A stretch of 64,000 nucleotides of DNA from Isoetes taiwanensis. Taxonomy: Eukaryota; Streptophyta; Lycopodiopsida; Isoetales; Isoetaceae. Position 1 is the first letter of the stretch. The number at the start of each line of letters is the position of its first letter. The position numbers were made by a program, and so were the translations under genes. The stretch lies in the NCBI GenBank assembly GCA_021234155.1, contig JAJEKV010000003.1, positions 22,783,569 through 22,847,568 on the forward strand, written 5' to 3'. Below the pieces are notes generated by a model. It was not told the DNA's origin. It was given only the letters and a program-made list of their open reading frames with translations, and did not search any database. This document shows, piece by piece, positions 3,470-43,632 of the stretch.

Positions 3470-3655
3470 AGTTTGAGGGGTCTCTGGCTGCGGAAAGGGT
3501 GCCTAGAATTGAATTTGGGGACTCAAGAACGCGGGCAGAGCACCTTTTGGGCTAGTCGACATCAAGTGCAAAAATCTTTATAAATTCTCCACGTATTTAC
3601 AACCCAAATGGGAGCTGTACAATCTCAATAACCATATAGAAATGGCAGTACAATT

Positions 3656-4429
3656 TCAATATGAATATACAAGTGGCTTAACATTCTCAAATGTTAAGTT
3701 CTCATTGGAAGCAACAATCTTGCCTTTAGGTTTCCTAGATTGTGGAGGCTTTCGAGGTCCTAACACCCTTAGTTTGCCCCCAACAGTCCACTCCCTCTTG
3801 CAGCTTCTGCACGTATACCTGGGTTGGCCTTGCTTCTTATTGTTCATGTAGTCGAAGCGTGTGTTATCACTGAAACACCGAGGGCAATCAAGATGGGGCA
3901 TCTCTATCTTCTGCTTCTTCATCCTTGGAGCTGTCATTTCTTGTGGCATAGTTGCCATGCTTGCTGTTGCCTGTCCGCTTCCAAGTTGAATCGAGTTGGC
4001 AACTATCTTCCTCTTCTTCATCTTTGGAGCTGCCATTCCTTGTGTTGCTTGTTGCTCCCATGGCTGCCATTCACGCGAATACGTACAAGTGTTCCAGTGT
4101 TCACTTCCAAGTCCAATTGATGCATTGACCAAGTCATACATGGCTGTACTGGCTTCTTCTGCTTCAACTTCACTATCTCCTTTGCAGAGATTTTCTTGTA
4201 TTGATTGAAAAAAGTTGACAAAGTCCTCGTCTAGGACTTCCAACTCTTTTTCTTTTTGTGACGTTTCTAGGTCAAGCTTAAGCAAGTCTTCGTTACCTCT
4301 TTTCAACACAGGCGGTTCATCGGCATCAAGTACGTCAATAGATGCTAGGGCGTCCTTCTGGTCCAAGCTCCTCAGATAGTTGAATTCCTCCGCAGTCAAA
4401 ATAAATTCTTCGTCGTCAAGCTCCGCCAT
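3656..4429 (-). CDS. Dof-type zinc-finger transcription factor (left copy, open)
   Basis: A 257-residue frame; the ATG at 4429 ([16 protein letters not shown]) is chosen because the right-arm copy starts at the equivalent ATG, although the frame stays open 33 codons further upstream. A Dof finger lies near residues 194-240: CPRC, 21 residues, then CRSC, followed by [11 protein letters not shown]. That is the family's CX2CX21CX2C spacing with its QPRY, W and GG positions. Dof proteins bind AAAG-core sites in the nucleus. Before the finger are an acidic leader (a possible activation region), two repeats of the form AP.MKK.KI that could be nuclear localisation signals, and Gln/Thr-rich linkers. 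The finger is unusually close to the C-terminus. No intron is needed. The finger is somewhat divergent from canonical Dof (DYMNN for CYYNN), so binding specificity is unknown. Confidence 0.75.
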
Positions 4430-5875
4430 TGTGAAAGTCCTCCTTGAAAATGCTGTAATGCGACATGTGGAATGAATGGGAGTCTTATAGACCCCGTCTT
4501 GTTGCCTTGATTCCCAAGTTATCCCCATTTCTTAAAATATCTCCTAAATATATCAGTGATATTTTTGTGCTCACGTAAATATCGCAGGGGAAAGCCGTGT
4601 ACAGATGCCCTGCTGGAGCACAGAGCCGCGGCCATGGATATACCAACACAGATTGCATTCCGACGGCCATAGATGGAGCAGTTTCAAAAGGAGGAACAAG
4701 AGATGTGGTACTATTTTTCAAAGAAATGGCGTGGAATTTCTTGCCGAGGAGCATAATGCACAGAGATTTGGCTATGGCAGGTTGTAGCTCTTAAATCCAT
4801 CAGAAATCCTTGGTAATTTAGGTTTTTATGCACTTCCTTTCCTTAAAATTTCAATATTCTAATGGTTGGTAAGAATGCACCTATGGCAGTTGAATTCTTA
4901 CAGAGAAATGGCTGCAAAGCCCGTGAACTATTTTATACTGAAAGGGTGCATCTTCAAAACATGGACCACTGATGTGGTGCATCAGTCTGCATAGGCCAGT
5001 CTATGCAACCGTTATGCAGGTTTCTCTCATACAAACTCTGCAATTTAGTAGAGATTCTGAGTTTTCCATGCCTTTCATAGAAGGTTAGCATCGTATTGCA
5101 GCATGCGGGTGGCATCAATGTTTAAAGGCAAAAATAATTGGCTGGAAAATATTAGTAGTGGTTTCTGCCAATGGACCTTCATTGGGCTAGATTTTTGACC
5201 AGTTGTGGGTGCCTTCTAGTGGCTGTTTTAATTTCTGTGATTGACCAAAGAGAGATAGTGGGAGACACCATTTCTTGAATTGGTTGGGCAGATAGGGAAT
5301 TGCACAGAATATCTGAGACAGTTGGTGTGCCATGAGTGGTGCACCTATGATGTATTCAGTTTGATTATTGAATGGAAACCTTTGATATGTTCATTGAAGA
5401 GGCTACTTTATATGGAAAGCAAGAATAAATTTTTGCTTTTGGCATGTACTGTTGAAGGATTGGAGGAATAATAAAGCTCATGACATGATTGCAGCATTGC
5501 ACGTGAGCTAGAAGAATCCTCTATGAAGCCTGAAGACTCCTATGGACATACATTATGAAGGTGGTATACGGGAACTCCAAAACAAAAAGGATGATGTAAG
5601 CAGTGCAGGTTGCTTGTTATTTCAAAAGAAGATATTGAGAAACAGAAGAAGGGAAGAGTAAGACTGATGGAATGAAGAAATTCAGCAAGCGTCTGTCCAA
5701 AGGGAACTGTCTCAGTCAGTCTTTGAAACAGAGAGCTCAATCTACCGGCGGAAGGAAATGATCTGAACCAGTGGAGAAGTTATGCTAGTTATATGTCCAA
5801 GTGAGAGTGTTGGAAGGGCTGATTCTTGAAATGGCGTGGTGCGGGTGATCGATCCGCACCAACAGATACATCTTG
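4430..5875. other. Outer arm, Dof upstream region and copia-like tail
   Basis: No convincing gene. 4,430-4,800 is the Dof upstream region, AT-rich with ATATATC stretches. 5,280-5,740 has short open frames that are broken in the right arm. Near 5,790-5,815 the plus strand reads TCCAAGTGAGAG followed by TGTTGGAAG, which resembles the polypurine tract and 3' LTR start of a Ty1/copia element. The same 21-bp string occurs twice in the right arm, on either side of the SLAC1-like insertion. In this arm it is present once. Confidence 0.5.
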
Positions 5876-6690
5876 TCAATACATTTGAGTGTGAATGCAA
5901 TCGCAATATATTACTTGGCTCATAAGTAAAATAATGTAATGGTCATTGTGGACATGCGTGCATTTTATGTCTTTTATACCATATAATTTTGGCCCGACAT
6001 AATGTAACCATGCCCTTGACACAAGCCTGAGATATAACTGAAATTCTTGCAAGGCATTGGGGATGGGCCTAATGGGTTCCTCATATTTTTGTACTTGCCA
6101 ATCCAATGTTGTGGATGCAGTTCATCATGATGCAATGCAATGCACAGTTTGGATGTTCTTATACACAATTTTACGATTTGTATAGAATTGCTTTGGACTG
6201 TTGGTGCAAATCAGACTTTTGGGTATTGTATAATTGGATTGCTGATAGCAAATTTACCAGCACCATGAATCTTTTGGAGACTTTCATCTTTTGGAGGCTA
6301 AAGTGACTGGATACCTAAAGATCCGATGATGATTTGCTTGAATACTATGTCATTGCTCTGATAATATGCAGTGATTGAGCTATAATAGCATGCCAACAAT
6401 AAAGATGGCTACCTAAAGAGCTGATGATTATCTGCATTTGTACTATGTCATTTCTCTGATGCCATGCAGTGACTCAACTATAATAGCATGCCAACAATGA
6501 CGATGTCGTTGTTAGCACGCTCTCTAGGTATGTTTCTAACCTTCTTGGGCTATGGTTCATATTATAGGCAGTGCATCTGTTAAGTAGCTCGAACTCTTCC
6601 TTAGATTGCAGCTCTGCCATATCCTGTCTTTAAGCTAAATGCCTTCCCTTTGGTGTTTAGTAAGATTTTTTGTTTATTCTTTTTCCACAG
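5876..6690. other. Outer arm distal part, no gene seen
   Basis: AT-rich sequence shared with 37,205-38,050 of the right arm in inverted orientation. It contains short open frames conserved between arms only because the DNA is similar (for example the frame around 5,974-6,168, matching 37,730 onwards), and an internal direct repeat around CTACCTAAAGA (6,313 and 6,409). I recognise no protein family. Confidence 0.5.
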
Positions 6691-6714
6691 CCCCACAATT
6701 GTAGATTGTGAGAC

Positions 6715-8280
6715 AAGTTGTGGCTTAATAAGGCCCATACTTCTGTGGTCACAATGTCTAAAGCTCCATCACAAACTTAACTATCATTAAACATCTGAAC
6801 AAGCAGTAGCAGATGAGTCTTCCGCATCAAATACTTTGGGTTCCTTTCTTGAACTGCTACTTAGAGAGTTCCAGTAAAAAATTTATTTGATCTTGAATCA
6901 CATGCCGTAGATGTTCCTTCCTTCTCATTCCTGGAAATTCCTCATTTAGTTGGTTCAAGCAAAGACCACCTTAACCTATAGTTTTCTTGTTGATTGTTTT
7001 CCAACAAGCATTTTCTAGCACTCATGTTCCCGCACCAACGAGAGCAGGCAGGTCAAGTCCATGCTCTATAGCATCAGCATGAGATTAGACTAGTTCTTCC
7101 TATCAACTTTAATATCAACGTTCTGTATAGTAGAAAAAGTGTGTACATGTGCAGCATCCAAGCATTCTACTAGTACGATTCACAGCTTATGCCACATTTC
7201 ATTGAGGACTTCAGCCTTGAATTGAGAAGAACTAGCATGTAAACGGTGCAGTCTTTATTCCTTCTAATAGTTTAGAATACTCTTTGTTGCTATTATGGGA
7301 TCCTGGAGCACAGAGAGACTTTATTCGTTCGTGCCAATTGGGTGGTTTATGGGTTTACTCTTTTCTATAGACAGATTATTATCATACAATATAGTAGTGG
7401 TTAACATATTGATAGCTTAGCTTAGGGGAAATCAGAAATTTGTCATTATGCACAACATAAGAGTCATTATAAAAGTCTCAAACGTTTTTGTAGCATCTAA
7501 AACACATGAGAAGAATGGAAATGTTTTCCACAATGCCACAAATAACGCCTAAATAGCAACCAGGCTGAACTTGCATAGAATATGCCGCGCCATGAAAATA
7601 TAGAACGTGAGGAGCTTGTGGCTTAAAACGGCCCATGTTTCTGTGATTCACGGTGTCCAAAGCTCCATGGGAATCTCAAGTATTATTGAACCTCAGAACA
7701 AGCAGTAACAGATGGGTCTTCTGCATCAAATACACTTCCAAGAATCTTAACATTCATATCCATGTTCTTTTAATTTTGCCAATGAGTTTCTAATCTTCAC
7801 TTATTTAAAATAGATCAAGGACAAGAATCCCTTTTTAGGTTCCTTTCTTGAACTGCTACTTAAGGAGTTCCAGAAAAGTTTTTTGATGATCCTGAATCAC
7901 ATGCTGTAGATTTTCTAAAAGTGTAAGGCAGTTTGTGCTCTTAATAAGGTAACTTTACAGGCATTAGAAGCCATGATCCAGAGCCCTTTATTAAGTTTCC
8001 TAGCATTCAACAGATGGCCTTGCTCTGCAGCATCCAAGAATTCTACTAATACAAGTCAATGTCTATGTCACATTACATTGTGGACTTTAACCTTCACTTG
8101 AGAACAACTAGCATGCAAACAAAATCTAGAGGACTGCTCTTTTCTATAGGCAGAGGTTTGCAATGCGTCCCTACCATACATCCCTTGCAGGAAGCCTCTA
8201 ATATACAATGTGGAGTAGTGGTTAACACGTTGACAGTTGAGCTTAGGGGCAGAATCACAAAGTTCTCATTATCCATAACT
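6715..8280 (+). repeat. Two diverged direct repeats of about 0.7 kb
   Basis: 6,715-7,455 and 7,615-8,280 are diverged copies of each other. Both contain GTGGCTTAA...CCCAT, CAAGCAGTA(G/A)CAGATG, TTCTTGAACTGCTACTTA and a shared ending around GTGGTTAACA with TTGAGCTTAGGGG. No protein family is recognisable. The second copy overlaps the start of an inverted R1 repeat. Confidence 0.6.
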
Positions 8281-8965
8281 AATTTGCCAGCACGTATTTG
8301 CCATTAAGGCCAAAAATTATCTGACAAATGTGTACTCATAGGAGTAGGGAACAAGTTATACATTTTTGGGAAATAAAAGCATCGGTTACTGAGACAAGTA
8401 GATGGAGATTCCTTTGTGTCATAGATAGTAACTTGATATTGTCAAAGTGTAAGGCAATTTGTGCTCTTACATTGAATAAGCCATATATGATCGGTGCAAC
8501 TCCCATTATGAAGCTTCTAAGCTACTTGTTATAACATGCACTCTGCCCTTTGACACAACATGCTTGGTTGTAGAGCCAGAAGTGTGGTTAGAAACTGCAT
8601 TGACCTCTTCATACTTAATAAGGCTAATCTCACTTTATTTCGGGCATTAAAGCCATCATCAGTGCAGCTCGTAGTGTTAAGTTTTTAACATACTTGTTAT
8701 AACATGCAGAACTCACTCTGCCTTTGACATAACATGCATGATTTGTGGCATAAGCATTAGTAAGTGTGGCAGTCCATAAGAATGCATTGTGCGCAGGCAT
8801 GGTGCTAGAAATATACAAGTTTGCACACATAATGATTAGACTAGATCTTCCTATTATCTTCAGTAACCAAGTTTCTGTATACTAGGAAAGGTATACTACA
8901 TCTGATAGCATAGACATGAAAAGATAAAAGACCAAGCAGTCAAAATAAAAGGAAGTGAATCTGTT
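8205..8965 (-). repeat. R1 family repeat, inverted copy
   Basis: The reverse complement matches 10,725-11,460 and 22,090-22,910. Markers are AAGCTCAGCTGTCAACGTGT, TTATAACAAGTAG, the TGCCTGCGCACAATGCATTC string and the TTTATTTTGACTACTTGGTC end near 8,940. With the copy at 10.7 kb it forms a local inverted repeat around the R2 copy at 9.1-10.3 kb. No coding content is recognised. Confidence 0.65.
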
Positions 8966-9061
8966 TGAGCAAGTGAATCTGTGCCTTGTAGGGTGTTTTG
9001 TGCAGATTTTTGTTGGCAAGCAATGTTCGTCCTATTGCCCATTTTACATACCTTTCGCGTC

Positions 9062-10268
9062 ATAGGTATCTGTGAAGCAACTTAGAAAACTTGAACCAAG
9101 TTTTATTCTTATTTTCAAAAGGAAGCTGATCAAACTTAGTAGTGGCATATGGCCTGGACTAAAAACTCTGCAACATAATTGCATATATCAGATATGCATG
9201 CTATTTTAGGCCTTTGCATGGTCTTTGGATTTATTTTTTAGGTCATGCTTCTTCAAGAAACTGTTGCAGGCTTTAGGATACTTCTTTGCTTATCTATTGC
9301 AGATGTTTGCAAATATGTAGATGGTAGTTTCACTTTCGTATATTATTGGAGTAATTAGCCTGATTCATATCTATGAATCAAATTAATGCTAAAATACATG
9401 CTACATTTGTGATTTTCTATCTAATGGCAAGTGTTTTCTATTTCATTATTTTCATGCATAACAAGATAGTTCAAGAAGAAGTCTCTAGATACGGATGTAT
9501 TGGCTAAGTGCGCATGTTTTGCAATCTCGAAGGGGTCATTTTGATTTTTTTTAGTTTGATGTTGCAGGGCAGATTGGCATATGGGCCTTATATTTCAGTA
9601 AGTCATGAGGTCTATCTTCACAACCAATATTCCATTGCGGTTGCTGGCCTTTATACCAAGAAGGATTACTGTTGGGTCTTTTAAGTTAGAGCTTTTGCAG
9701 GAAGTACTTTCTGCGGAAGAAATTCTAGGTACAAGCATTCCATTTTTTTGTTTTTATTTTATATTCTACTGGCTCAAACTGTTCAATCTGCTGGATACAT
9801 ACATATAGCTACAAGACAATCTTTCATGATGTAGAGATCTGGCTATAGTGCATCAGCTCCTTTTATGCATTGCTAGCCTGTTAACTTCCCATGACGCTCT
9901 TGCAAATGGCCACCACTCTGTATAAACAAATGGCCACCACTCTATATAAATGCCATTGATCCCAATCCTGAACTCCAGCAATTTGTATATATACCCTTGC
10001 ATCCTATTCATCTAGGCAAATACAAAGTGTAACCACATTGATGGCTTACAGATCTTTTTGCATCCTTGATGAGTTAACACCTTGATCATTCTTTTATATC
10101 CAACATTAGATGCATGATATATTTGGGAAAGGGACTATAAAAATCGATTCTTATGTATATGGTCTTCTTTATCTCTATTTTGCATATTGCTTCTATTTTA
10201 GTTTCATAAATTCGAGAGTCTGAGCTGTCTGGCAGAAATAGACATGCTCGGTTACAAATACATTATGT
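9062..10268 (+). repeat. R2 family repeat, copy 1
   Basis: Direct copy of 18,281-19,412 and inverted copy of 24,155-25,330. It starts at GGTATCTGTGAAGCAACTTAG and ends near AGACATGCTCGGTT. It contains an exon-like segment (about 9,566-9,730) whose frames read AYGPYISVSHEVYLHNQYSI and, one frame over, LELLQEVLSAEEILG. These are conserved in all copies, suggesting a shared captured exon, but I do not recognise the protein. Confidence 0.65.
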
Positions 10269-10480
10269 GACAGAAATAATGCTTAATGGTTAAGCACACA
10301 TATGTGCTGACGTGGCAGCCTGTGTATTTACATAGGACCATGATTTATAGTTTAGCATATATTTAAGTTCATGTATGCCCCTAGCTAGGTTAGGTGTCAA
10401 CATGCTGTGCTCTACACGTCATATACATGACCATCTTCTGTAGCACCGAAGAAAAACAATCCAATCCATCATTTCTTTTT
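10269..10480. other. Short AT-rich spacer
   Basis: Unique-looking AT-rich sequence between R2 copy 1 and the following R1 copy. I see no gene, repeat boundary signal or RNA feature in it. Confidence 0.4.
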
Positions 10481-12240
10481 CTGAGTTCTTATACACATTA
10501 GAATTCATTCAATTCTTCTTAACATCTTTATTTAAATATATAATTTGCCGATACTATATAAAGGGAGTCCTAAAAGGGATTAGCCAGGTAATGGCACATA
10601 AAATACAATGCCACTACATCTACTGAGTGCACTACATGATGTCACAATCAGATATGTTTATGGGTCTATAGGGAATGATGTGAATGTAGTATATGATACA
10701 ATTAAGTCCCAATGCTTGGATATATAATCACCACGCTCTAAAGTCTAATCATTACATGTGAAAACTTGTATATTTCTGGCACTATGCCTGCGCACAATGC
10801 ATTCTTATGGACATAAAATGTAGACTCTAAATCACAGCCTTCCTGTCACACTTGTCAATGCTTATGCTACAAACCAAGCGGGTTATGTCAAAGGTGGAGT
10901 CAGTTCTGCATGTTATAACAAGTACGTAAAAAATATAACACAAATGAACAGACCGATCATGGCTTCTAAGCCCGAAATAAAGTGAGATTAGCCTGATTAA
11001 ATGTAAGAGCACAAACTGCTTTACGCTTGAGAAGATCAAGTTACTAGCTAAGGCATAAAGAAATCTCAATGCAGTTTCTAACCACACTTCATGCCACACT
11101 TACCAATGCCTCTACAAGCAAGCATGTTATGTCAAAGGCAGAGTGCATGTTATAACAAGTAGCTTAGAAACTTAATAATGGGAGATGCACCGATCATATA
11201 TGGCTTATTGAATGTAAGAGAACAAACTGCCTTACACTTTCACACAAAGGAATCTCCATCTAGTTGTCTCAGTAACCAGTAACCGATGCTTTTATTTCCA
11301 AAAAACGTATAACTTGTTCCTTGCTCCTAGAAGTCACATTTATCAGATTATTGGCAAACTAGGTGCGCTTAATGGCAAATACATGCTGGCAACTTAGTTA
11401 TGCTTGATAAGAACTTTGCAATTCTGCCCCTAAGCTCAGCTGTCAACGTGTTAATTGCATGAGTCCCAAGCAATATTCTTAAACTATTTTCTGGAGAAAT
11501 GACATGGGGTATATTTCCCATGTAGAGATGTTACACATGGGAGTCCAACTAAGCTGGTGTCTAAAGTCTTGAAGATGCTCTAACTCGTGTGCTTTCCTCC
11601 TAGCTCCATCTGCAAAGGCTGCCTTCTTGGACATGGCATTGGGATTTAAAGACTTATAAATTGCATCATTGCAGTTACAATTCATTCAATTGTGCTTAGC
11701 ATCTTTATTTAAATATATAGTTTGTCGATACTATATAAAGGGAGTCCTAAAAGGAATTAGCTAGGTATGGCACATAAAATACAATGCTACTATATCTACT
11801 GTGTGCACTACCTGATGTCACAATCATATGTTTATGAATCTATAGGAAATGATATGAGTGTAGTATCTGATACAATTAAATCCCAGTGCTTGGACATATA
11901 ATCACAAAACTCTAAAGTGTTTATGATAAGAAAGATAGATTTTGAGAAATCCAGCTAATTGAAAGATTTTCATTTTGATTATATTTTACCCAACTAAAAT
12001 GCCACATTTGTAGTCTTAGATCCATACGTTAATTACTCGTTTGTCCAACAGGTTTGCAAACTTTATTCTATTCTAATTTGCTTTTAGAAATTCTAATGGG
12101 ACAGAATATACCTCAGTAGTAGATTTTATGTAAGTAATGCATCTGCAGTGACGATGCCAACATAATGCTCTTCGTACTTAATATTGTTCTTGCATCCACT
12201 GCACATGAATGCCAAGATTAACATAAGATGAAACACACAA
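10481..12240 (+). repeat. R1 family repeat, long copy
   Basis: 10,725-12,240 matches 22,240-23,800 directly and 8,205-8,900 in inverted orientation. A sub-block around CTTTATTTAAATATATA and ACTATATAAAGGGAGTCC occurs twice within it (10,510-10,740 and 11,680-11,930) and again at 23,140. ACTATATAAAGG resembles a TATA box, but no gene follows it. The end near 12,150-12,240 also matches 21,390 and 23,690. Confidence 0.65.
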
Positions 12241-12392
12241 AATACAACACATATTTATGCGTGGCTTGTTGACAGCATGGGAGGCGGTCAGACATCTTTT
12301 TTGGCCATGCCCCTCTATCCACACCATATTGGAGACTCCATGGTGGTGGGCACCACTGCCTCCACACCCCTCAAAACCCCCATTGGCAGCAT
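12241..12392. other. Spacer before copia LTR
   Basis: Sequence with CACC-rich stretches leading into the probable LTR start TGTAGAATTATATG at 12,393. No gene is seen. Confidence 0.35.
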
Positions 12393-12789
12393 TGTAGAAT
12401 TATATGTGCTATGGTTTTTATAAACCATAGAGAAGCTAATGGTCATTGAATATTATTGTTTGGTAATGGTTCGATGATTTGGAATCTTACCATTAAGCAT
12501 ATTTCTAGATAACCCTAAATTCTAGCTCGGTGAACAGTATCCCGGGCCAGGTGGAAATAAAAGCTTTGATCTAGCTGCCGATTAGATCAATGAGTGGATA
12601 TGATGATGGGGTTGCCAGATTTCGGTGATCCCCTAATATATTTAAGCAGTAGTTTACATTGTACAGACAGGCAGATTGATTGTGAGAATGAATTGAATTC
12701 GTACATTCATTTTTGGCTATAGTTCAATTGTGTGACATTGATGCAATAGGATAAGGTATTGTAGTCAGTTGATAAATTATTATCTTTCA
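12393..12789 (+). repeat. Probable 5' LTR of a truncated Ty1/copia element
   Basis: A segment of about 397 bp beginning TGTAGAATTA and ending ATTATCTTTCA. It stands immediately before a primer-binding site (TTGGTATCAGAGC) and a gag frame. The TG...CA ends and position define it as an LTR. No partner LTR is present because the element is cut off at 13,611, so the exact outer end cannot be confirmed by comparison. Its start contains a small hairpin (CTATGGTTT...AAACCATAG). Confidence 0.6.
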
Positions 12790-12802
12790 TTGGTATCAGA
12801 GC
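12790..12802 (+). promoter_or_regulatory. Primer-binding site (initiator Met-tRNA)
   Basis: TTGGTATCAGAGC directly follows the LTR end. TGGTATCAGAGC is the standard plant copia primer-binding site, complementary to the 3' end of initiator methionine tRNA. Confidence 0.8.
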
Positions 12803-12813
12803 TAGATAGAACA

Positions 12814-13611
12814 ATGTCCACACGTTTTGGAGCTACATTGCTAAGTTCTGTTGAAGTATTTCAGGGGATTTGAGGCTTTCAGATATGGAAAGAAAGAATT
12901 AAAGAAGTCTTACAATTTGAAGGATTATGGCATATAATTGAGTCTAATGGTGGTGTTGATGATGAAGCTAGCAGCTCAGCAATAGGAGAGGCTTCAATTG
13001 CAAAATCTGGAGAGTCTGCTGCAAAATCTAAAGAGGTAAGTGTTAGTAGTGATAGAAAAAGTGATGACTTGAAAATAAGTCAGGCTAAGGCTATAATTAT
13101 GTGCAAGGTTGCACCAAGCATAATGTTTAAACTGAGGGATTTGAGTCCTAGAGATGCTTGGAAGTATTTACTCAAGACATATCAGACGAAAAGCTCATCC
13201 CAGATAGATGTTCTGGAAAAGGAAATTAGAAAGATAAGATTTGATGAGAAAACTGAGCTGACCACAATGTTCCATAAGTTTGATTCCCTTTGTGCAGATT
13301 TAGAGGCAGCAGGGATAACTATGTCTGTAAGTCATCAAATCTTGGCAATTTCCAAAATGTTTGCTAATTTTGGGACCTTGGCTACACTAATAAGGACTGT
13401 AGCTAGGACGAGGGAAGAGGATGAGCAGATTGCAAGGACTGAAATAGAGCAGAAGTCTGGTGTTGAAAATGAAAATGAGGATGAGGAAGATTCTGCAGAA
13501 GTGTTAGTGGTAAAAAAGGGAAAAGCCTATAATGACAGAGGTAGGCAATTGGTCCATGTTTTGGTTGTGGGGAAGTAGGGCATTTGAAATATAACTGCCC
13601 AAGAAGTGGTC
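12814..13611 (+). pseudogene. Ty1/copia gag, 5' part, truncated
   Basis: From the ATG at 12,814 (MSTRFGATLLSSVEVFQGI) the frame meets one in-frame stop at 12,871 and then continues GFQIWKERIKEVLQFEGLW. A long open stretch (13,069-13,578) follows with the copia gag pattern: PRDAWKYLLKTYQ, LEKEIRKIRF, FHKFDSLCADLEAAG. After a frameshift near 13,545 a complete CCHC zinc knuckle appears (CFGCGEVGHLKYNC, about 13,555-13,600). Gag packages the element RNA. Sequence identity with copia ends at 13,611 inside CPRSGQSS, where an unrelated LTR begins. Protease, integrase and RT are absent. Confidence 0.8.
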
Positions 13612-14166
13612 AGTCATCCAGTATGTCTAAGCCTTGCTATTATGAAAGAGAGAGCTAAAAATAAACCTTGACCTTTATTTAGAAGCAAAAAGACAAAAAA
13701 AGGTGTTGTTACTTATAAATAGAAGGACAATTTTGAGACGTGATATCTCCGCGACCACAACTCAGAAGTTGGCGATCCTTACCTTGTTGGAAAGCTCTTG
13801 AAGTCTAGTTTCCAAATTGGCTTGGTTGTCCATAGATTCCTTACGGTTTGAAAGTTATGCCGAGAGAGGTGCATAGGGGTCTAAGTTGACTATACAACTA
13901 GATCTGCTTCTTCCTATGTTGATGATGTGCCTGGCCTTACCTTCTAGTATCTTCTCTTGTTCCTTGCTTGATCATATCATTAGAAGGAGTTCATGCCAGC
14001 GGTTGGTGGCTAGAAAGAGTTTGTTCTTATACAGTCTTACGGAGTAACTTGACTTGGTGATATCTCTTCTAGTTGGTCCGGTTGGGTGGTAAAACGAGTA
14101 CTCTATGTTGTTTTACTTTCTAATAAGTTGATGAGTTTGCAAGAAGAATAGAGCATTCATAACAAT
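13612..14166 (+). repeat. 5' LTR (truncated) of the left non-autonomous element
   Basis: Matches 15,692-16,247 directly, from AGTCATCCAGTATGTC to the terminal AACAAT. The first 88 bp of the full LTR (TGATATGG...) are missing and the LTR is fused to copia gag. Confidence 0.8.
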
Positions 14167-14803
14167 TGGTATCAGAGCCCAGTTCCGGTCTTTACCAGCG
14201 GAGCTGTGGGTGATGGAAGGCGTTGGAAATTTAAGTGGCTAAGCAGCACAAGAGGTCCAAGAGGGGCAAATTACAAATAGGTTACCTCTTGTCTGGTATG
14301 AAATTGATGTTTAGGAATTGTGATTAGAATCTTTAGATATTTCTTATTGCATCCTTATGGCTGAGGTTGGTGCCTCATGGTTGGAAAGAGTTGGTGCTCT
14401 TGACCAAGTGATTGGAATGAGCGTATGCCAGGTCCACGATTGGAATGAGTGGATGCCATGTCCAAGAGATTGGAATGAGTTGGTGCTCATCCATGTGAAT
14501 AGAATGTTTGTTATTCCTGATGTTCGCAGGTCTTCTGGTTAGTGCTGGAGATTGCAAACTGGAATGGAGATTGATCAGAAGTTGGTGCTTTTGGTGGAGG
14601 TTAGTAAACATTTTGTTGAGACAAATTAAGTTGATGTTCAATTTGTGGTTTTTGGAGGCCTTCTCGAGGAACAAAGTTTATTCCTGAGAAGGGAAGGACT
14701 AATAATTGGTATTAATACTTCCTAATGGAAGGGGAAAAGATCTTTCTTGTTCAAGGTGAATGATGATATTTAACTTGAAGAACTGGAAAGGGCTGGGAAT
14801 GCC

Positions 14804-15070: not shown

Positions 15071-15218
15071 GTTTTAGGCGGCTATCGGGTAAACGTATAT
15101 TTGAGTTACATTTGCCTTAGGGGAATTCTAAGGAGGAAGTATAAGGTGTTCTTTTCTTTGTATAGTGTATAGTAAATCTTGAGACAACTAATATATCTGT
15201 AGCATAATAGTTGGACTT

Positions 15219-15545: not shown

Positions 15546-15603
15546 TCAAATTTGCCATATAATTTCTTGATCGAGGACGATCAATCCCGAGAAGGGGAGG
15601 AAT

Positions 15604-28865: not shown

Positions 28866-28878
28866 AGAGCAATGTTCA

Positions 28879-31464: not shown

Positions 31465-31472
31465 AATGTTCA

Positions 31473-32930: not shown

Positions 32931-33465
32931 CAAAATGGACGATCTTCAATTTTCAATGAAGAACAAAGCCCTTTTTGTGCAGGTAGAATGGATCAAGATA
33001 AGGATCAAGAATTTGGGGAGGGGGGGATCCGACCTTGCATGCATCTATACAGAGTTGCAAGTAGTTTTTTCTTTATGGATGTTTTTGTTTGATGGATTGA
33101 GAAGAGGATCACGTGAATATGTAAATGTTTGCTCTAAGAAAACTTGTCAAGTCTACCTTGATAGACACATGTTGAGTATATAACTGCTAAAGGATCTCAG
33201 TCTTGGCTCTAAATCTATCTCTGATTTCGGCAATTCCAGTGCAAATCTTTCATTTGTTCCCTTGCCAAATACCTCTTTTTGGGTTGCCCTTAGAGGGGCA
33301 AACCCTCGCTAATGTGGTTTTTTGACATATTCTAAATATATGCTGATTATGACTAGAATATGCCAAAAACTGCTTCAAACTGCCTGTTTCCAGTAAACTG
33401 TTAGTCACCTTGTTGCGGTCGCTACTATTCGAATTGCTTAACCGGAATGAATTTTTGATGCTTGC

Positions 33466-33655
33466 AAGGTACTGGACTCGAAAGTTATTGAAAGTTTTGG
33501 AGTTCTTTACGCCTTTCCAGAAACAGGAAGAGTGTTGGCGATGGTAGAAGTTCTTGACGCATTTCCATTAGGGCAGATTGATGCCCTTCAGCAGCTCTTC
33601 CTTGCAGGAAATACTTTGGTGATTACACAAACATGGATTGGAAGCCAGGTTAACG
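33466..33655 (+). pseudogene. Exon-like segment of unknown gene
   Basis: Frame reading LDSKVIESFGVLYAFPETGR, VLAMVEVLDAFPLGQIDALQ, LFLAGNTLVITQTWIGSQ, bounded by TTGCAAG (possible acceptor) and AGCCAG followed by GTTAAC (possible donor). The second copy at 52,680-52,840 is frameshifted. It may be part of the SF1-like gene that follows or of another gene; I do not recognise it. Confidence 0.35.
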
Positions 33656-33734
33656 TAGGTTCTATTTTTTCGCTGAGATTTTGTGGTCAGAGTTTTCAAC
33701 CTATCTTTGCCATCACGTATTAATAACAAAAACT

Positions 33735-35560
33735 TGAAGATGGCACTAAAGTCAGGAATGAAGTTTGTGATTCCTAAAAACAAACTGTCAGGATCTCCTG
33801 TCCCCATTGCATGAGATTCTAGAAAAGTCGATGCAACAAACGCTAGTGTTTAAGGAGATCCATTGCAGTCTCGGCGAAAGACAAGATGTGGTGTTGATTT
33901 GATTCAGGACCCCGCTGTCAAGAGGGCCGAGCACTTGTGCTATAGGTTGTTGATTTAAACTTAATGTCAAAAAAAGGACTTATATTTGATTGTTGCATGT
34001 CTTGTGATGTTTTCTATTTCCTTTGGATTAGGTCTTGTCTTGATTTATCTCTATGCTCCTCGACCATGCCAAATATTATTCCATGCAGAAGTAGTAGATT
34101 GAAATGTTGTTGATTAATTGATTTTGTAGGTTGGCCGATTACCATGAAAGTTGCCTGATGGCTTGTGAATGTCCTGTGGTATTTTAATTGTTCATTTGAT
34201 GGCCAAAAGATCTATGCTGACTCATATCGTGCTAGGTTGAGGAGATTTAAGGACTGTTGGGTATTTGGAAATGGATTCACCACCTACCTATTTCATTTTG
34301 TTTTGATGCGCAAAAAATTATATACATACAACCTCAATTTATTTGGTGGGGAGGTGAATATACAAATAATTGGAAGGTTGGGATTATAGAATGGCAATGA
34401 ACTGAGGGGATGGCATCCAAGGGAGTAGATATTGAACAAGATATGGGGAGCTTATTGAATGATGCAAGCTTGTTAGTTTTCCTACAGTTTAGCATCAAAT
34501 CTCTCTGACATTGTGAAAATGAGGCTAATTTTGTGTATCAACCAAATGAGGATTTATCTCAAACTAGTTTTGTGGTTGGTTTTCATCGTTACTTCATTGA
34601 GAAAAAAGAGCTCAACTGCAGCTCGTTTTGAACGAAGTAAAATTATATTCTTGGAGCCAGGAGGAACTTCACTTTTGCAGATTTGAAGCACGACTCCTCT
34701 GTCCTAAAGACTGTCTTTTCGAGCAATCGCTTGTATCGATTTATGCAGAAAGTTGAGCAATAGAAGCAAATAAATTATTCGATTCTTCCCCCAGAGACAC
34801 ATGGGTTATTCTACGAGGATCCCATAAATTCTTGCACTGAACTTGATTGTTGAGTGCTGTTTTTAAACTTTCTTGTGTTGTCATGTTTGGGCCTCCTATT
34901 CTAGGTGTCATATAGTGAGCAGACTCGTGTTGAGCAGACTCTTGTTGTCTAGGTACGAATTTTGAGCAGACTCGTGTTGAGCAAATTGCACAACTGGAGA
35001 TGGAAAATTTGGAGGCTAATGCGAATGAACTGCCATGCTCGCTAAAGCTTAGGCAGATCCCTTGTATTTGTATCTTCTTTCTCTCCTTAGAAAAGAAGAC
35101 AGGAGCGGTTGAAGTTAGAGAAACGAGAGGCAATAGGTGAGTTTTTGACAGCTATTATTGTGCACATATGTGATCCTTCTTGCAGATAAGCGTGTAATAT
35201 TTTTGCACATGTGGGCATGTGTTTTCTCTGGGTGCCATCTTGTCCATGTACCTATATGCTAGTTTGATTTGAAGTGAATGCATGTTGTTAAACCTGTCGT
35301 ACAAGCCCCCACCATTTGATTTGAAGTGAATGCATGTTATTAAACTTGTCGTACAAGCCCCCACCTGGGCACGTGCCCATTTTGAAGGAAGATAAATTGT
35401 ACATTCCATCCAGTAAATGTTGTAGGATTTGCCATCTTTTGCAAATGAGAATGAGTGGAAATTGTATGTCAAATTATATTGGGTCATGCAAGTGAAGAAA
35501 TATCAAGGATACAACTTTATAAGACAGATCCTTGGACCACGTGGAAACACACAAATGGTA
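33735..35560 (+). pseudogene. SF1/branchpoint-binding-protein-like KH gene, decayed copy 1
   Basis: Exon-like pieces in order: SGMKFVIPKNKLSG (33,758, then a stop at PIA), DLIQDPAVKRAEHLCYR (33,895-33,945), TRVEQIAQLEMENLEANANE (34,970-35,030), RRQERLKLEKREAIG with a GTGAG donor (35,093-35,140), and KKYQGYNFIRQILGPRGNTQM with a GTAAG donor (35,494-35,558). The last piece is the start of a KH domain with its GPRG loop. In plants this order belongs to SF1-type splicing factors that bind the intron branch site. Stops and frameshifts, and loss of the rest of the KH domain, make it a pseudogene. Confidence 0.6.
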
Positions 35561-35805
35561 AGTTGCTTCATATGATTATTGTTTATTCTGAAGTAGTGTG
35601 TATGTACTCGCCATTGTGAATACTCATTATTATGTAGTCCACTAACTATGATAAAAAGTACAGCCATGGGAGAGTTGATGCAATGTCATCTAACCTTTGT
35701 AAATTAAATTAATTCGCCTTTCCAAAAAGGTATTCCATGATGAAGCCTTGATAAATTCGTTGCCCATGTCACGCCTATTAAGAAAAAACTCTGTGGCAAT
35801 TTTCA

Positions 35806-37204
35806 ACCAAAGGTGATAACAATATAAGTCATTTTTTAATTTTATTAATGGACACAATTTCAAGCCGACATAGAAACACTTCGTTTAGTTCCCAAAAGGG
35901 TGTTCCACGACGAAGGCTTCAACCAAAAGGTCATAACAATTCAACTATTAAATGGGCAGAATTTTGAGCCCAAACATAGAAACAAAGCATGGTTTAATTC
36001 ATTGGTCCCTATACAGAACCTTATCGACAATCCGCCCAATATCATAAGAAAACATAGTATAGTTTGGTTGATTGATCACAATGCATGGATAGCATGAACC
36101 TTATACCATGTGATATAGAACTGGCAATGCTACTTTAAAAACCCCATTGGTACCTTGCAAACAACCAGTATGCAAGGATCTGGAGAATGGCTGCTAAAAA
36201 AATCTAGAATGCAGTGTAAATGACACTGACATTCTTGTGGTCAGTCAGTATATCATCATTGGAGGACGTTATAATTTCGTGAGCGGTAGGCAGTGTCGAT
36301 TTCAAGGGTTCCATGACATACCTAGACCACAAATCAAATGTGAATGATCTCCTCAAATTAAAATTGCTGTTATTTATTCACCCATTAATGTCCCTTCAAA
36401 ATCCATCAAGACCTGCTTTTCTATTATTAGGAGGCCAGAACATACATAAACTGTAACCAAATATCAGACATAAAATGAAACGCATACCTCTGGAATGAGT
36501 TTGACTCTTCTACCAACAACGTTTTAAAAAGAACATAATTTTGTTACTGTTGTAATTGCATAACCCTGGATAATAGACACAATTCTGTCAGTAACGATAG
36601 TATACAACCTCAAGATAGAGAATAATACAGACATAACCTATGCAATAACATTGCTAAGATATGGGTATAGTCAAATTTCTACCATCATAAACGCCATTAC
36701 TACCACCTTATCTTAAGAGGGCTCTTTCTGAGCATTTTGAATTGGAGAGATGATATGTTGTAGGGGAATTTGCTAAGCCCTGTTCCATATAAGTACCATA
36801 GAGATATCATGGTCATGATCTATAAAGCCCAAAAATAGTTTGTCTTGACATCATATGAATATAAAACCTAATCAACAGCAACTAATTCAAGATGAGCGAA
36901 TGGTCTAAGAACATCTCAACTGGGCGGCAAAGAAACAATGGTTACTGCACACTGCACGGCTTTGCATTTCAATTTTGACGGGCTGTCAATTCTTCCTCGA
37001 GGCAACCCTGCAAAAAAAATTATAGAGGTGTAGATGTGCTTATCTATGCACAACTCCGCAAGCCAAAGTGCAGAGAGCATCCAAAGTGGATCAAAACAAC
37101 AAAAAACATGTCTTAGCATTTCAATTTCAACGAAATGTCAATTCTTCTTCGAGGCAACCCTGCATCATGAACATGTCTTCTTGTGTTGCATCATCAACGT
37201 ATCT
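35806..37204. other. AT-rich spacer with small internal repeats
   Basis: No gene supported. Short local repeats occur: CCAAAA(A/G)GGTATTCCA(T/C)GA versions at 35,722 and 35,893, and two copies of a 60-bp word ending GTCAATTCTTC(C/T)TCGAGGCAACCC (36,987 and 37,138). The open frames here are short and featureless. Confidence 0.45.
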
Positions 37205-38098
37205 TAAAAGCAAAGTAAAAAGAATAAACGAAAAATCTTACTAAACACCATAGGGAAGGCATTTAGCTTAAAGACAGGATGTGACACAGCTGCAATCTAA
37301 GGAAGAGTTTGAGCTACTTAACAGATGCACTGCCTATAATATGAACCATAGCCCAAGAAGGTTAGAAACATACCTAGAAAGCGTGCTAACAACATCTTCA
37401 TTGCTGGCATGATATTGTAGTTGAGTCACTGCATAGCATCAGAGCAATGACATAGTACGAATGCAGATAATCATCATCTCTTTAGGTAGCCATCTTTATT
37501 GTTGGCATGCTATTATGGCTCAATCACTGCATATTGTCAGAGCAATGACATAGTATTCAAGCAAATCGTCATCAGACCTTTAGGTAGCCAGTCACTTTAG
37601 CCTCCAAAAGATGAAAGTCTCCAAAAGATTCATGGTGCTGGTAAATTTGCTATCAACAATCCAATTATACAATACCCAAAAGTCTGATTTGCACCAACAG
37701 TCCAAAGCAATTCTATACAAATCATAAAATTGTGTATAAGAACATCCAAACTGTGCATTGCATTGCATCATGATGAACTGCATCCACAACATTGGATTGG
37801 CAAGTACAAAAATATGAGGAACCAATTAGGCCCATCCCCAATGCCTTGGCAAGAATTTCAGTTATATCTCAGGCTTGTGTCAAGGGCATGCTTACATTAT
37901 GTCGGGTCAAAATCATATGGTATGAAAGACATAAAATGCACGCATGTCCACAATGACCATTACGTTATTTTACTTGTGGAGCCAAGTAATATATTGCAGT
38001 TGCATTCACACTCAAATGTATTGACAAGATGTATCTGTTGGTGCCAGATCGATCACCCAGACCCTGCCATTTCAGTGAATTAGCAGCAAGAACACGCC

Positions 38099-38119
38099 CT
38101 TCCAACACTCTCACTTGGA
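38099..38119 (+). repeat. 21-bp direct repeat, left flank of the SLAC1-like segment
   Basis: CTTCCAACACTCTC followed by ACTTGGA, identical to 41,465-41,485. The left arm has the string once (5,797-5,817, reverse complement). On the minus strand it reads as AAGTGAGAG then TGTTGGAAG, like a copia polypurine tract joined to an LTR start. Confidence 0.85.
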
Positions 38120-39176
38120 GACTTGCTTCATCCTAGTGATGGTAGGCAAAGGTTATGTTTGCTTTCTCAATTGTGGCTATAATTTGAATTCCTTATGGCT
38201 ATCATGAGTTCCAAATAATTTGGTGTCTAAGTTCTGCGAGACTTTTGCATCACATGGGGTGCATCTTTGACATGAGTATTAGGTCTACTTATTCACTAAG
38301 ATTCAAAGGAGCTTTGTGGTGAGTCACAACTCTGCACATGCCCTTTTCCAAAAGGGTCAATGAAACAACCACCTTTTAAAATTGTTACTAGTGCCGGCAC
38401 CATAACTAATATGTTTTAATTTTCAACGTTACATGTGATAAGCCATATTGAGTTCTAAAGTTTGGCCTCCCTTTTTTCACAATCAAAACAGTATACGAGG
38501 TAGGACATTCCAAGTGTTAAATTGCATGAGGCATCTTCCTTATTGCCGGGCTGTATGTAATGAAGTGCTGAGTACTTGCACACTTGGAACCTGCCGGCCT
38601 GGCTCCGTTTGTTTCATCGAGCCAATGAAAGGAACCATTTTCCTGGGATGCACTTTGAGATGTTCTTATAAATCACTGTCTTCTCAAGATAAGTTCACAC
38701 TGTCTTCTCAACATAATTCCTTGAGGAACTTGTATGTTCACTGTCTTCTTCTCAGCATAATTTTCTTGAGGGACTTGCTCACTCTTCCTGTAGATTCTGG
38801 TTTGTTGTTGTATCCTAAAACAACATTGATATCTGCTTGAAAATAGACATTTGATGTCCAAATGGTCAAATTGTGCAAACTACTCTACAGCATATAGCAG
38901 GGCACCCTCAATTGTTGCGAATGGTGATTGTAATTTGTTCCAATTTTCATATATATATTTTATAGACGTAAATAAGTCGTCACAATGACTAAAAACCAGT
39001 AACTTCAGAACCCAACTTTCAGAACAGCCTTGGCACTTTAGGCCCTCATTAGAGCAACCCTCATCCCTTCTGTGGATGCAAGATTTACACCTTGTTTTGG
39101 TATGTGTGTGTGGCTCCATGGGTCCATTTTCTGTAGAAATATGAAGCATAGATATAGAAGTGATGCCTTGGTATAC
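38120..39176. other. Downstream flank of the SLAC1-like gene
   Basis: AT-rich. It contains a small local repeat around CACTGTCTTCTCA...CATAAT (38,665-38,770). No second gene is recognised. Confidence 0.4.
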
Positions 39177-41277
39177 TTAAATGCTCTTATCAATGATCTT
39201 TGCAGCCATTTCATTCGAATCAGAATGTGGTACACTTTTCAAGCATCCAAACAATTTCATAGTGTTTTGAGATCCTCTGTCTACATAAGTGCTATAGTTT
39301 CCACTGCCAAGTTCTTTTTGTGGTTTCCTAGTGATGGCAATTGCCATATCATTAGGAAATAGTGTGCCCCAGAAGAAGTGCATCAAGGTTGATATGAAAA
39401 AAAGAAAGACAGTGATAGCTGACAGTAGGCAAAGCAGAATTGCCATTGTGTCACAGGATGCAAAACCTTATGGGCATATCTAAGGGTGGCAAGGGAGAGC
39501 TCTGTCATTGGAAATGTGTATGCCCACCATGCAATGGAAAATCTGTTATACAATACATAGTATTTGAAGAAAATCAACAAGTTTATATGAAATGCAGCTT
39601 AAACAAAGATCATTACTTGTATCCTCGGAAAAAGTTGACTCGGACTACCTGAAACATAGAAAGCAGACAAAAATGAGGATATATGTACACATGCTCAACT
39701 CTGTTCTGTTAGTTACAGGAAACTTACAAGTGAACAGTAGAGGAAAAGAGCAGTAAAATATGCCAATCTACATGGATATCCATAGTCACCGGTAATGTTT
39801 TCCCAAGCGAGACTTGCTGCACTTGGAGCTGCAAGAAACAAGAAGAAAACAGGATGCAACTCTCTTGGAAGAACTTCATTGGTAGGTAGTCTTTGATAAA
39901 GAGTCACAAAGAGAACTATATAGTGAGCGAGTCCCACTGCCCAGAAGAATACTGCCACCTCTTTCCATCCAACTGTAGCAAACAAAAGCGCACCTACAAA
40001 ATTGCCGACAACTGACAAATGTGAAGAAGGATTTGCCACTTTTGACAGCCTCCTATCCCTCCAGAAAGCCATTCTCCATATATTTTCAATTCTAAAACAA
40101 AAATGGGAACCATCAAGATGCACCATGTTGCAGAATGAGCCGAATCTGTAACCATGGAAGGAACTCCCAAAGCTAAAAACATTCCACTTATCCAACGTGC
40201 AAAGAAGAAGTTTACACGCACTGGATGTTGATATTCTCGTCGCACAGCTTCTAAGTAGAAGATGCACTTTAGCATGTATGTGAAAAAGATGAGAAGAAAT
40301 GCAACAAGTGCCAAAGACCATAATACCACATGGATAGAAGAAGGTACATGTAGAAACTTTGTGGCTGAATTCAATGTCAATTGTTTCCAAAGGATGGCTT
40401 GGCTGCCAAGACCAAGACAAATCCCATAAGAACTAATAGGTAATCGGAGAAGGAAAGGCCACTGCTGGTCTTTTGGTAGGAGAATATCCTCGGATCCCTG
40501 AATCAAGTCGCTGATATTAGAGAAATTTCTACTAGCCTTTAAAATAGTCTAACTTTGTACTTGGATTTTAAATGGGCAATGTCAAAGTCACCAATCAGTT
40601 TTTACCATCTGTGAAGCATACGCTATGATGTAATATTCTTTTCTAAATGCAGACGAACCTTTAATTCTTCAAGCTCCGCTCCTTGTAGTGCATCAAAATA
40701 ACGACCTGTAGGCAGATTACTTGGAACATCAGGACACGTCTCAGGCACATATGGTATGGCATCCAACTTTTCACCAGGATCTTTATCTTTCAATCTGGAC
40801 AACTGCTTTTCTAATGCAGGTTTCAGGCTAGAAGACCTTGTTCTAAAGTACCCATAACTTTCGCTGTCTCCGCTGTGTGAGGAGTTGTGTGAGGAGTTGG
40901 TGAACTTCTTGCTGCCTCTAGGTGTTCCATGATCTGACTTCGAAGAAAAGCTTGGCCTCTCTGAAGGAACAGATGTTCCTTCCAAACCAGTATCCCCTGC
41001 AATATAATTGCCATTTGTCTCCATGTGGATTCTGACCTCGTGTGAAGGGTCTATAGCAACTGTAAGTATCTGGAAGAAGTTTATCATCAAACGGATGAGC
41101 TTCATTTCTAGAATATTCTTCATTGTCGGACATAAATGAAATAGGAGGAGAGGAAGGAGATCTTGGATGTATTGTTGGGTTACAAGCTCCTGGTGAAGGA
41201 AAACAAAAATTTGATGGCAAATCTATGTCAATTCCATGCTTTTCTGGAGGCTCCTTAGTATTATGTTCATCAGCCAT
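39177..41277 (-). pseudogene. SLAC1-like: S-type anion channel, SLAC1/SLAH family, four exons, frameshifted
   Basis: Start ATG at 41,277 (MADEHNTKEPPEKHGIDIDL). Exon 1 (41,277-40,659) codes the cytosolic N-terminus, with FRTRSSSLKPALEKQLSRL and RYFDALQGAELEELK. Exon 2 (40,497-39,728) codes most membrane helices: EDILLPKDQQWPFLLRLPI, GICLGLGSQAILWK, KCIFYLEAVRREY.HPVRVNFFFA, NPSSHLSVVGNFVGALL, LFVTLYQRLPTNE. Exon 3 is only 32 bp (39,648-39,617, VVRVNFFRGYK). Exon 4 (39,542-39,177) has FSIAWWAYTFPMT and TLFPNDMAIAIT. GT-AG sites and phases fit at all three introns. Plasma-membrane channels of this family release chloride, nitrate or malate, for example during stomatal closure. Single frame shifts near 41,070, 40,056 and 39,446 break the frame; these could be true decay or assembly indels. 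SLAC1 versus SLAH cannot be decided here. Confidence 0.85.
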
Positions 41278-41464
41278 GTCTAACTACGTTAACAACAAGA
41301 AATAAGCAATCAGATAGTCTGAATCATCAGGAATAAAGAAAGGTTTGAACAGCCTAAGGGGTGTTAAAACAATGCAACTAGAAAGACAGGAACAATCAAC
41401 GGACAGATGGACACAAGAGAATAATCCCAGACACACAAGACACCACAAGGAAGTGTGTTTATTA
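41278..41464 (-). promoter_or_regulatory. Upstream region of the SLAC1-like gene, LTR-like start
   Basis: On the minus strand it begins TGTTGGAAGTAATAAACAC directly after AAGTGAGAG, then CACACTTCCTTGTGGTG... to the ATG. The beginning has the look of a Ty1/copia 3' LTR following its polypurine tract, so the gene may lie behind part of an LTR. No second LTR was found to prove this. Confidence 0.35.
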
Positions 41465-41485
41465 CTTCCAACACTCTCACTTGGA
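41465..41485 (+). repeat. 21-bp direct repeat, right flank of the SLAC1-like segment
   Basis: Identical to 38,099-38,119; continues into CATATAACTAACATAAC as in the left arm. Confidence 0.85.
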
Positions 41486-42800
41486 CATATAACTAACATA
41501 ACTTCTCCACTGGTTCAGATCATTTTCTTCCACCGGATCTGAATAGATTGAGCTCTCTGTTTCAAAGATTGACTGGGACAGTTTTATCACGTTTCCTTTG
41601 GAAAGACGCTTGCTCAATTTCTTCATTCCATCAGTCTTACTCTTCCCTTCTTCTTTTTCTCAATATCTTCCTTTGGACTAACAAGCAAACTGCACTGCTT
41701 ACATCATCCTTTTTGTTTTGGAGTTCCCGTATCCATAGGAGTCTTCAGGCTTCATAGAGGATTCTTCTAGCTCACATGCAATGCTGCAGATTTCTGAGTG
41801 AGTCTGCAATCATGTCATGAGCTTTATTATTCCTCCAATCCTTCAACAGTACATGCCAAAAGCAAAAATTTATTCTTGCTTTCCATATAAAGTAGCCTCT
41901 TCAATGAACATATCAAAGGTTTCCATTCAATAGTCAAACTGAATACATCGTAGGTGCACCACTCATGGCACACCAACCAATCTGCCCAACCAATTCAAGA
42001 AATGGTGGCTCCCACTATCTCTCTTTGGTCAATCACAGAAATTAAGAGAGTTGAATTAAAATAAACCCCAGCCACTAGAAGGCACCCACAACTGGTCTAA
42101 AATCTCCATTGGGAGAAACCACTACTAATATTTTCCAGCCAATTATTTTTGCCTTTAAACATTGATGCCACCCACATGCTGCAATACGATGTTAACCTTC
42201 TATGAAAGGCATGGAAAACTCAGAATCTCTACTAAATTGCAGAGTTGTATGAGAGAAACCTGCATAAGGGTTGCATAGACTGGCCTATGCAGACTGATGC
42301 ACCACAGTGGTCCATGTTTTGAAGATGCACCCTTCCAGTATAAAATAGTTCACGGGCTTTGCAGCCATTTCTCTGTAAGAATTCAACTGCCATAGGTGCA
42401 TTCTTACCAACTTCGCTGATATAACCATTAGAATATTGAAATTTTAAGGAAAGGAAGTGCATAAAACCTAAATTACCAAGGATTTCTGATGGATTTAAGA
42501 GCTACAACTACAACCTGCCATAGTCAAATCTCTGTGCATTATGCTCCTCGGCAAGAAATTCCACGCCATTTCTTTGAAAAATAGTACCACATCTCTTTTT
42601 CCTCCTTTTGAAACTGCCCAATCTGTGCTGGTATATCCATGCCCGTGGCTTTCCCCTGCGATATTTACGTGAGCACAAAAATATCACTGATATATTTAGA
42701 AGATATTTTAGGAAATGGGGATAACTTGGGAATCAAGGCAACCAAGACTCCCATTCATTCCACATTTCGCATTACAGCATTTTCAAGGAGGACTTTCACG
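41486..42800. other. Right outer arm between the insertion and the Dof copy
   Basis: Inverted counterpart of 4,430-5,800. Open frames seen on the left (for example 5,280-5,471) are not preserved here, which argues against them being genes. The immediate Dof upstream region (42,640-42,800) is well conserved between arms. Confidence 0.5.
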
Positions 42801-43533
42801 ATGGCGGAGCTTGACGACGAAGACTTTATTTTGACTGCGGAGGAATTCAACTATCTGAGGAGCTTGGACCAGGAGCAGCTCCTACTTTAGACGTTCTTGA
42901 TGATGAACACCTCTCTGACGAAGACTTATCTGAGGAAGACATCATTAGGCTTATGGATGAATTAGGTGGCTTATTGGTAGAGGACAAAGCGCCATCATTG
43001 GATGGCTTGTTTGCAGAAGACCTAGATGAGGACTTTGTCAACTTTTGTCAGTCAATAGAAGAAAATCTCTGCAAAGGAGATAGTGAAGTTGAAGCAGAAG
43101 CCAGTATAGCCATGCATGACTTGGTCAATGCATCAATTGGACTTGGAAGTGAACAGGCAACAGTAAGCACATGGAACACTTGTACATATCCGCGTGAATG
43201 GCAGCCATGGGAGCCAACTCGATTCAACTTGGAAGCGGAAGAAGAGGAAGATAGTTGCCAACTCGATTCAACTTGGAAGCGGACAGGCAACAGCAAGCAT
43301 GGCCCCATCTTGATTGCCCTCGGTGTTTCAGTGATAACACACGCTTCGACTACTTCAACAATAAGAAGCAAGGCCAACACAGGTATACGTGCAGAAGTTG
43401 CAAGAGTGGGGGCAAACTAAGGGTGTTAGGACCTCGAAAGCCTCCACAATCTAGGAAACCTAAAGGCAAGTTTGTTGCTTCCAATGAGAACTTAACATTT
43501 GAGAATGTTCAGCCACTTGTATATTCATATTGA
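42801..43533 (+). pseudogene. Dof-type zinc-finger gene, right copy, frameshifted
   Basis: The ATG at 42,801 opens [20 protein letters not shown], then shifts frame near 42,880. The next frame is acidic (LDVLDDEHLSDEDLSEEDII..., LLVEDKAPSLDGLFAEDL) and differs from the left copy in this stretch. It rejoins it at [21 protein letters not shown] second shift follows near 43,290. The Dof region then reads CPRC, 21 residues, CRSC, but KREWTVGGK is reduced to KSGGK: four residues including the conserved Trp are gone. A tandem duplication of ACTCGATTCAACTTGGAAGC (43,218 and 43,261) accompanies the second shift. As written it cannot make a working Dof finger. Confidence 0.75.
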
Positions 43534-43632
43534 AATTGTACTGCCATTTCTATATGGTTATTGAGATTGTACAGCTCCCATTTGGGTTGTAAATACGTGG
43601 AGAATTTATAAAGATTTTTTGCACTTGATGTC

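Follow-up and report, generated by a model that had tools for sequence, protein, structure and literature searches.

Does the long inverted repeat in a 64-kb stretch of the Isoetes taiwanensis genome (assembly GCA_021234155.1, contig JAJEKV010000003.1, positions 22,783,569 to 22,847,568; henceforth the window, numbered from its first base) go back to a single palindrome that has decayed, to several inverted duplications or to a false join in the assembly? A first-pass annotation, made from the sequence alone, had described nested outer and inner arms spanning some 40 kb, with unrelated DNA between them. With a probability of about two in three, we interpret the locus as two inverted duplications of different age stacked in plant nuclear DNA. 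This interpretation draws on a nested long terminal repeat (LTR) element found in both inner arms, on the empty site of this element in a third repeated block, and on the divergence of the individual blocks.

By self-BLAST, the outer arms (3558-6684 / 37217-43632) and the inner arms (13612-19499 / 24159-31465) are inverted copies, the latter separated by a spacer of 4.7 kb (19500-24158). The mirroring of both sets of arms reported by the first-pass annotation far exceeds chance: six inverted pairs score 610-3655 bits, whereas in 20 first-order Markov shuffles the top inverted match of each reached 0-49.1 bits, and the reported arm ends agree with ours to about a dozen bases. The left outer arm consists of two parts on the plus strand: 3558-5816, an inverted match to 43632-41465 with 71/1932 substitutions outside a dense patch at 4230-4345, and 5796-6684, an inverted match to 38119-37217 with 40/886 substitutions. 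Their counterparts on the minus strand, 41465-43632 (containing a broken copy of a Dof frame) and 37217-38119, flank a 3345-bp block (38120-41464) that interrupts the right outer arm and is missing from the left one. The inner arms align as the inverted pairs 13612-13964 / 31376-31024 (6/353 substitutions), 14040-16618 / 31023-28504, 16644-18225 / 26895-25323 and 18333-19499 / 25325-24159. Towards the centre, the LTR element is followed by block P (left copy 16250-18225, plus strand, an inverted match to 25323-26895 and 28504-28876; right copy 25323-28876, minus strand, with a private 1.6-kb insertion at 26896-28503) and by the centre-proximal block Q (left copy 18333-19499, plus strand; right copy 24159-25325, minus strand). 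The right inner arm lacks 102 bp that the left arm has and of which 18276-18332 is a part; as these positions are represented in the third copy of Q (9064-10267), the right arm has most simply lost the ~100 bp.

A third inverted pair, 19497-21362 / 31465-32902, had been missed by the first-pass annotation. This block, R, falls on the left into what was taken for the centre (19500-21391, plus strand) and on the right into the right interval (31465-32900, minus strand). The order of elements differs between the two sides: on the left, reading the plus strand, it is outer arm, interval, LTR element, P, Q, R and spacer; on the right, reading the minus strand from the outside, it is outer arm, interval, R, LTR element, P, Q and spacer. 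The intervals themselves (left, 6691-13611; right, 32903-37216) are indeed unrelated, giving no match to each other at an E value of 0.01 and a word size of 7. The spacer (21392-24158, plus strand) is made up of older multi-copy repeats, with 21392-22094 resembling 23693-24406 and 22220-23795 resembling 10742-12251. Nor is the left interval unique, as 9064-10267 matches 18276-19410 and 10742-12251 matches 22220-23795. By eye, the end of a frame in block R (20193-20471) looks like the start of a long interspersed nuclear element (LINE) endonuclease, without a Pfam match.

The nested LTR element is located at the same point relative to P in both inner arms. Its left copy (13612-16249, plus strand), in which the first LTR (LTR1) is cut at 13612, carries the repeats 13612-14168 and 15692-16249, the second extending back to ~15603 (direct repeat, 94.8%); the right copy (28877-31465, minus strand) has AACAT on both sides. 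Paired direct LTRs of ~570-650 bp are present, and AACAT on both sides against the empty site in 21355-21391 constitutes a target-site duplication, the ends of the element itself being uncertain by a few bases. Left R continues through this empty site into the first bases of P: a single AACATT is followed by 29 bases (21363-21391) that match the start of P, and 21355-21391 matches 28878-28843 and 16248-16284. With the AACATT single and uninterrupted here, left R is in the pre-insertion state; the element is present, at one and the same point, in both inner arms. The inner duplication would accordingly postdate the LTR insertion. On the simplest view, one inner arm was copied from the other with the element already in place, an event that did not include left R. 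Of the short frames of each element copy, one (30011-30316 and 14774-15067) was compared with Pfam and matched no family. After LTR1 the left copy reads TTGGTATCAGAGCC, which we take to resemble a primer binding site for initiator methionine tRNA; the right copy differs there.

Block-wise divergence, which the first-pass annotation had suggested as a means of ordering the events, was expressed as substitutions per compared site. Two dense patches were set aside, with the reduced counts entered by hand: 4230-4345 is excluded from the outer value, and Q as well as 13 mismatches in ~34 positions at 14174-14207 from the inner value, in which the LTR1 stretch 13612-13964 is not counted either. Divergence then amounts to 3.94% in the outer arms (111/2818), 3.26% in R (45/1382), 3.21% between the LTRs within each element copy (36/1123), 1.48% in the inner arms without Q (60/4044) and 0.26% in Q, the innermost ~1.2 kb (3/1167). 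The inner arms differ from the outer arms (Fisher p = 2.4e-10), from R (p = 9.7e-5), from the LTR pairs (p = 3.9e-4) and from Q (p = 2e-4). No such difference separates the outer arms from R (p = 0.3), and both may derive from one event. Including the patches leaves the order unchanged, with 122/2044 (5.97%) for the first part of the outer arm and 1.88% for the inner alignment of LTR element plus P; the three inner alignments with nothing left out total 76/5245. The BLAST identity of 81% in the first part of the outer arm is misleading as a measure of age, because the gaps of 23 indels are counted; without the patch, substitutions amount to 3.7%. The proposal of two or more inverted duplications is thus upheld, by the values of 3.94% and 1.48% together with the common nested LTR element and its empty site in left R.

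Both patches set aside have a mosaic appearance. The patch at 4230-4345, opposite ~42,980 in the right arm, falls within the Dof frame and differs at 51 of 112 compared sites, whereas the arms are otherwise ~96% alike; by eye both versions are open and acidic, and the patch looks like copying from a third Dof-family gene. The one at 14174-14207 (right copy, ~30,860-30,890) follows LTR1 directly, where the primer binding site is presumed to lie, and holds 13 of the 76 inner-arm mismatches within 34 bp, a count that depends on the alignment. Between the arms, the longest run without a mismatch covers 697 positions (p = 0.0011 if mismatches were placed uniformly). That Q is nearly identical possibly reflects conversion from arm to arm, and a later copying event fits equally well.

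Several points weigh against two stacked duplications ordered in this way. The values of 3.26% and 3.21% do not differ (p = 1), so that the order of R and the LTR insertion is set by the empty site and not by divergence. The low divergence of Q can stem from a later copying event, and the two mosaic patches suggest that third sequences were copied in, which would blur the ages. Since Q and the spacer blocks recur at 9064-12251, the blocks P, Q and R could belong to dispersed repeats, and the two R arms may have inserted independently. R has its midpoint at 26,200-26,414, off that of the outer arms (21,950), which speaks against a common event for R and the outer arms unless a younger 5.9-kb left copy and unequal intervals are invoked. 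Finally, as the intervals lack homology, an older palindrome would need large replacements.

Under two successive duplications, the history may be reconstructed as follows. An older inverted duplication would have copied a block with a divergent Dof / SLAC1 gene pair, giving rise to the outer arms; block R was perhaps copied in the same event, its inner junction lying at 21391|21392. An LTR element, without recognised genes, is located at the R/P boundary in the right copy, and left R retains the empty site. The segment comprising LTR element, P and Q would then have been copied in inverted orientation to 13612-19499, beside left R, as the shared nested insertion suggests, and the centre-nearest Q would later have been homogenised between the arms or copied again. 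The arms would have decayed separately, the right one gaining the 1.6-kb insertion and losing ~100 bp and its Dof frame becoming broken, while a deletion between 21-bp direct repeats would have removed the SLAC1 block on the left, unless it was gained on the right. The left order is a rotation of the right one (R, LTR element, P, Q), which had suggested re-insertion of a circle; this was rejected because left R has the empty LTR site and a higher divergence (3.26% versus 1.48%). At the inner junctions 19499|19500 and 21391|21392, no exact base is common with the alternative flanks by eye, with an imperfect TGT/TGC at the first. Because no base is exactly shared, we infer that breakage followed by end joining, possibly involving templated synthesis, is a likelier mechanism than fold-back primed by pairing. 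We regard the structure as a by-product of repair in repeat-rich DNA and propose no function for it.

The inner arms are only ~1.5% apart, as recent paralogues or alleles might be, and the window could accordingly owe its structure to the assembly having joined two similar loci, paralogous or haplotypic, in opposite orientation. We consider this unlikely: the arms are asymmetric, with private differences of 1.6 kb, 3.3 kb and ~100 bp, block order differs (R inside on the left, outside on the right), divergence varies from block to block, and the window contains no N. A hairpin (missed-adapter) artefact would be expected to give near-identical symmetric arms and was set aside as unlikely on account of the ~1.5-4% divergence, the private indels and the permuted R; unlike for this artefact, the sequence does not argue against a join of two diverged paralogous loci.

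A single decayed palindrome, its intervals replaced by transposons and its inner part kept similar by gene conversion, is improbable. The first-pass annotation had placed the mirror axes at different positions, and they do differ, lying at 23,595 for the outer ends and at 21,829 for the inner edges. As proof of two events, however, this difference was dropped; the argument is weak, since the shift is for the most part an effect of private insertions: the axis of the outer arms past the 38120-41464 block is 21,950-21,958, and 22,494-22,561 is obtained beyond the 1.6-kb insertion. That the former value (21,950) comes within ~130 bp of the inner axis (21,829) favours one palindrome, as do the near identity of Q and the Copia gag fragment and repeat fragments in the intervals. 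A single mirror event does not, on the other hand, yield a left R with an empty LTR site in a permuted position, and conversion would have had to act across the 5-kb inner arm and not on R or the outer arms. Equally doubtful is a young plant palindrome with arm-to-arm conversion spreading outward from the spacer, in which the Dof / anion-channel pair was duplicated in inverted orientation and a different gene then lost from each copy.

Chance insertion of same-family transposons in opposite orientation, without any duplication of the locus, is most improbable: Q, the spacer block and a block at 33029-35805 do recur in the window, but one nested insertion occupies the same position in both inner arms, the outer arms contain gene sequence, and the ends of the inner arms do not resemble repeat termini, 13612 lying inside an LTR and 19499/24159 inside a longer repeat, given that the resemblance to 21392-22094 extends over all of 23693-24406. 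A transposon with long terminal inverted repeats was likewise rejected, as the inner ends are not like element termini and the flanks of the outer arms (3557|3558 and 43632|43633) do not match by eye.

The locus can be compared with three described systems. Among human copy-number variants with fold-back inverted duplications, 13 junctions are reported to show 2-8 bp of inverted microhomology, and three ~300 bp of repeat homology (PMC3907307). The present locus shares with these the succession of inverted arm, few-kb spacer (here 4.7 kb, containing R and older repeats) and other arm, but it is from a plant, has diverged with age and shows no exact base at the inner junctions, which later change could have erased. 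The gene-converting palindromes of the willow W chromosome span 200 kb, with conserved stretches of 20 kb, and were tested against a sister species (PMC7023750). Like our locus, they are inverted repeats of a plant that contain LTR elements and have arms of uneven similarity, one part being closer than the rest; here, in contrast, the comparison stays within a single window. In maize, deletions between short direct repeats remove duplicate genes, with repeats of 3-24 bp at 10 of 16 gaps (PMC2893956). One duplicate without the sequence and with a single copy of the flanking short repeat (21 bp here) is common to both cases, whereas the maize duplicates are homeologs after polyploidy and ours belong to an inverted duplication in which the sequence may have been lost on one side or gained on the other. 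The window offers a compact case of successive inverted duplications that can be put in order from a nested insertion, an empty site and the divergence of individual blocks. The processes suggested by it, namely inverted duplication, LTR insertion, deletion between short repeats and conversion between arms, have each been described before and belong to ordinary plant genome turnover; the locus is a worked example, not a new kind of structure, of interest mainly for the study of genome turnover or for assembly checking.

For the gene content of the arms and the remaining window, frames were selected from 71 frames of at least 90 amino acids and from stop-to-stop lists, and searched against Pfam as 20 frames (two sets of 10) followed by 10 more, partly longer versions of earlier ones; matches above the curated cut-off were obtained for 6/10, 0/10 and 3/10 frames in the three sets. 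The Dof zinc finger frame is open on the left (3656-4528, minus strand, 290 amino acids; PF02701, 74 bits, E value 1.1e-20) and broken on the right, where the Dof domain (43255-43533, plus strand; PF02701) lies in a frame split over several pieces. The block at 38120-41464, which has no other match within the window, contains a SLAC1/SLAH-type anion channel gene or pseudogene (39386-41277, minus strand), which is distributed over several frames and appears to have at least one intron. PF03595 was found on 39994-40506, 39713-40420 and 39386-39598 (minus strand), and in the PDB these channel fragments match SLAC1 and SLAH3 chains of plants; the stretch towards the N terminus, as far as 41277, was placed by position only, having no family match in Pfam. 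The coding sequence changes frame at ~40,050-40,090, and the apparent intron lies between ~39,720 and 39,590. In the right outer arm (39386-43533), the SLAC1-type sequence on the minus strand adjoins the divergently oriented Dof frame on the plus strand, forming a head-to-head gene pair. An exact 21-bp direct repeat flanks the block (38099-38119 and 41465-41485) and is single in the left arm (5796-5816); the left copy may lack SLAC1 through deletion between these repeats, or the right copy may have gained it. The flanking repeats had also raised the idea of a processed (retrotransposed) SLAC1 copy, which is not supported, because the matches at 39713-40420 and 39386-39598 are separated in an intron-like manner and no poly(A) occurs in 60 bases at the 38120 end.

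The window as a whole has a G+C content of 40.7% (the A, C, G and T counts sum to 64000), and its DNA reads as eukaryotic and plant-like, given the Dof and SLAC1-type sequences, Copia fragments and nested repeats. Scans of the window for tRNAs (ARAGORN, bacterial code) and against Rfam gave no matches. Copia-type sequence was matched in Pfam as a gag piece (12874-13575), a reverse transcriptase (47661-48431) and an SH3-like retroviral polymerase piece (48619-48846). Positions 1-3557 form a G+C-rich segment (56-67% across 1-3000) that stops at the start of the left outer arm; within it, an open reading frame at 1403-1702 (minus strand) is LINE-endonuclease-like by eye, without a Pfam match. Abutting the end of the right outer arm, 43633-43951 is a fragment of a repeat also present at 22110-22392 in the spacer and at 10742-10933 in the left interval, and a second copy of the terminal bases of the outer arm is seen nearby by eye. 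At 50768-56397, LTR-like direct repeats of ~1.05 kb (29/1051 substitutions) surround a block with a relative, lacking such repeats, at 33029-35805 (77-87% per BLAST piece). A long, imperfect array of the hexamer CACATG (31.3 copies) occupies 57379-57566.

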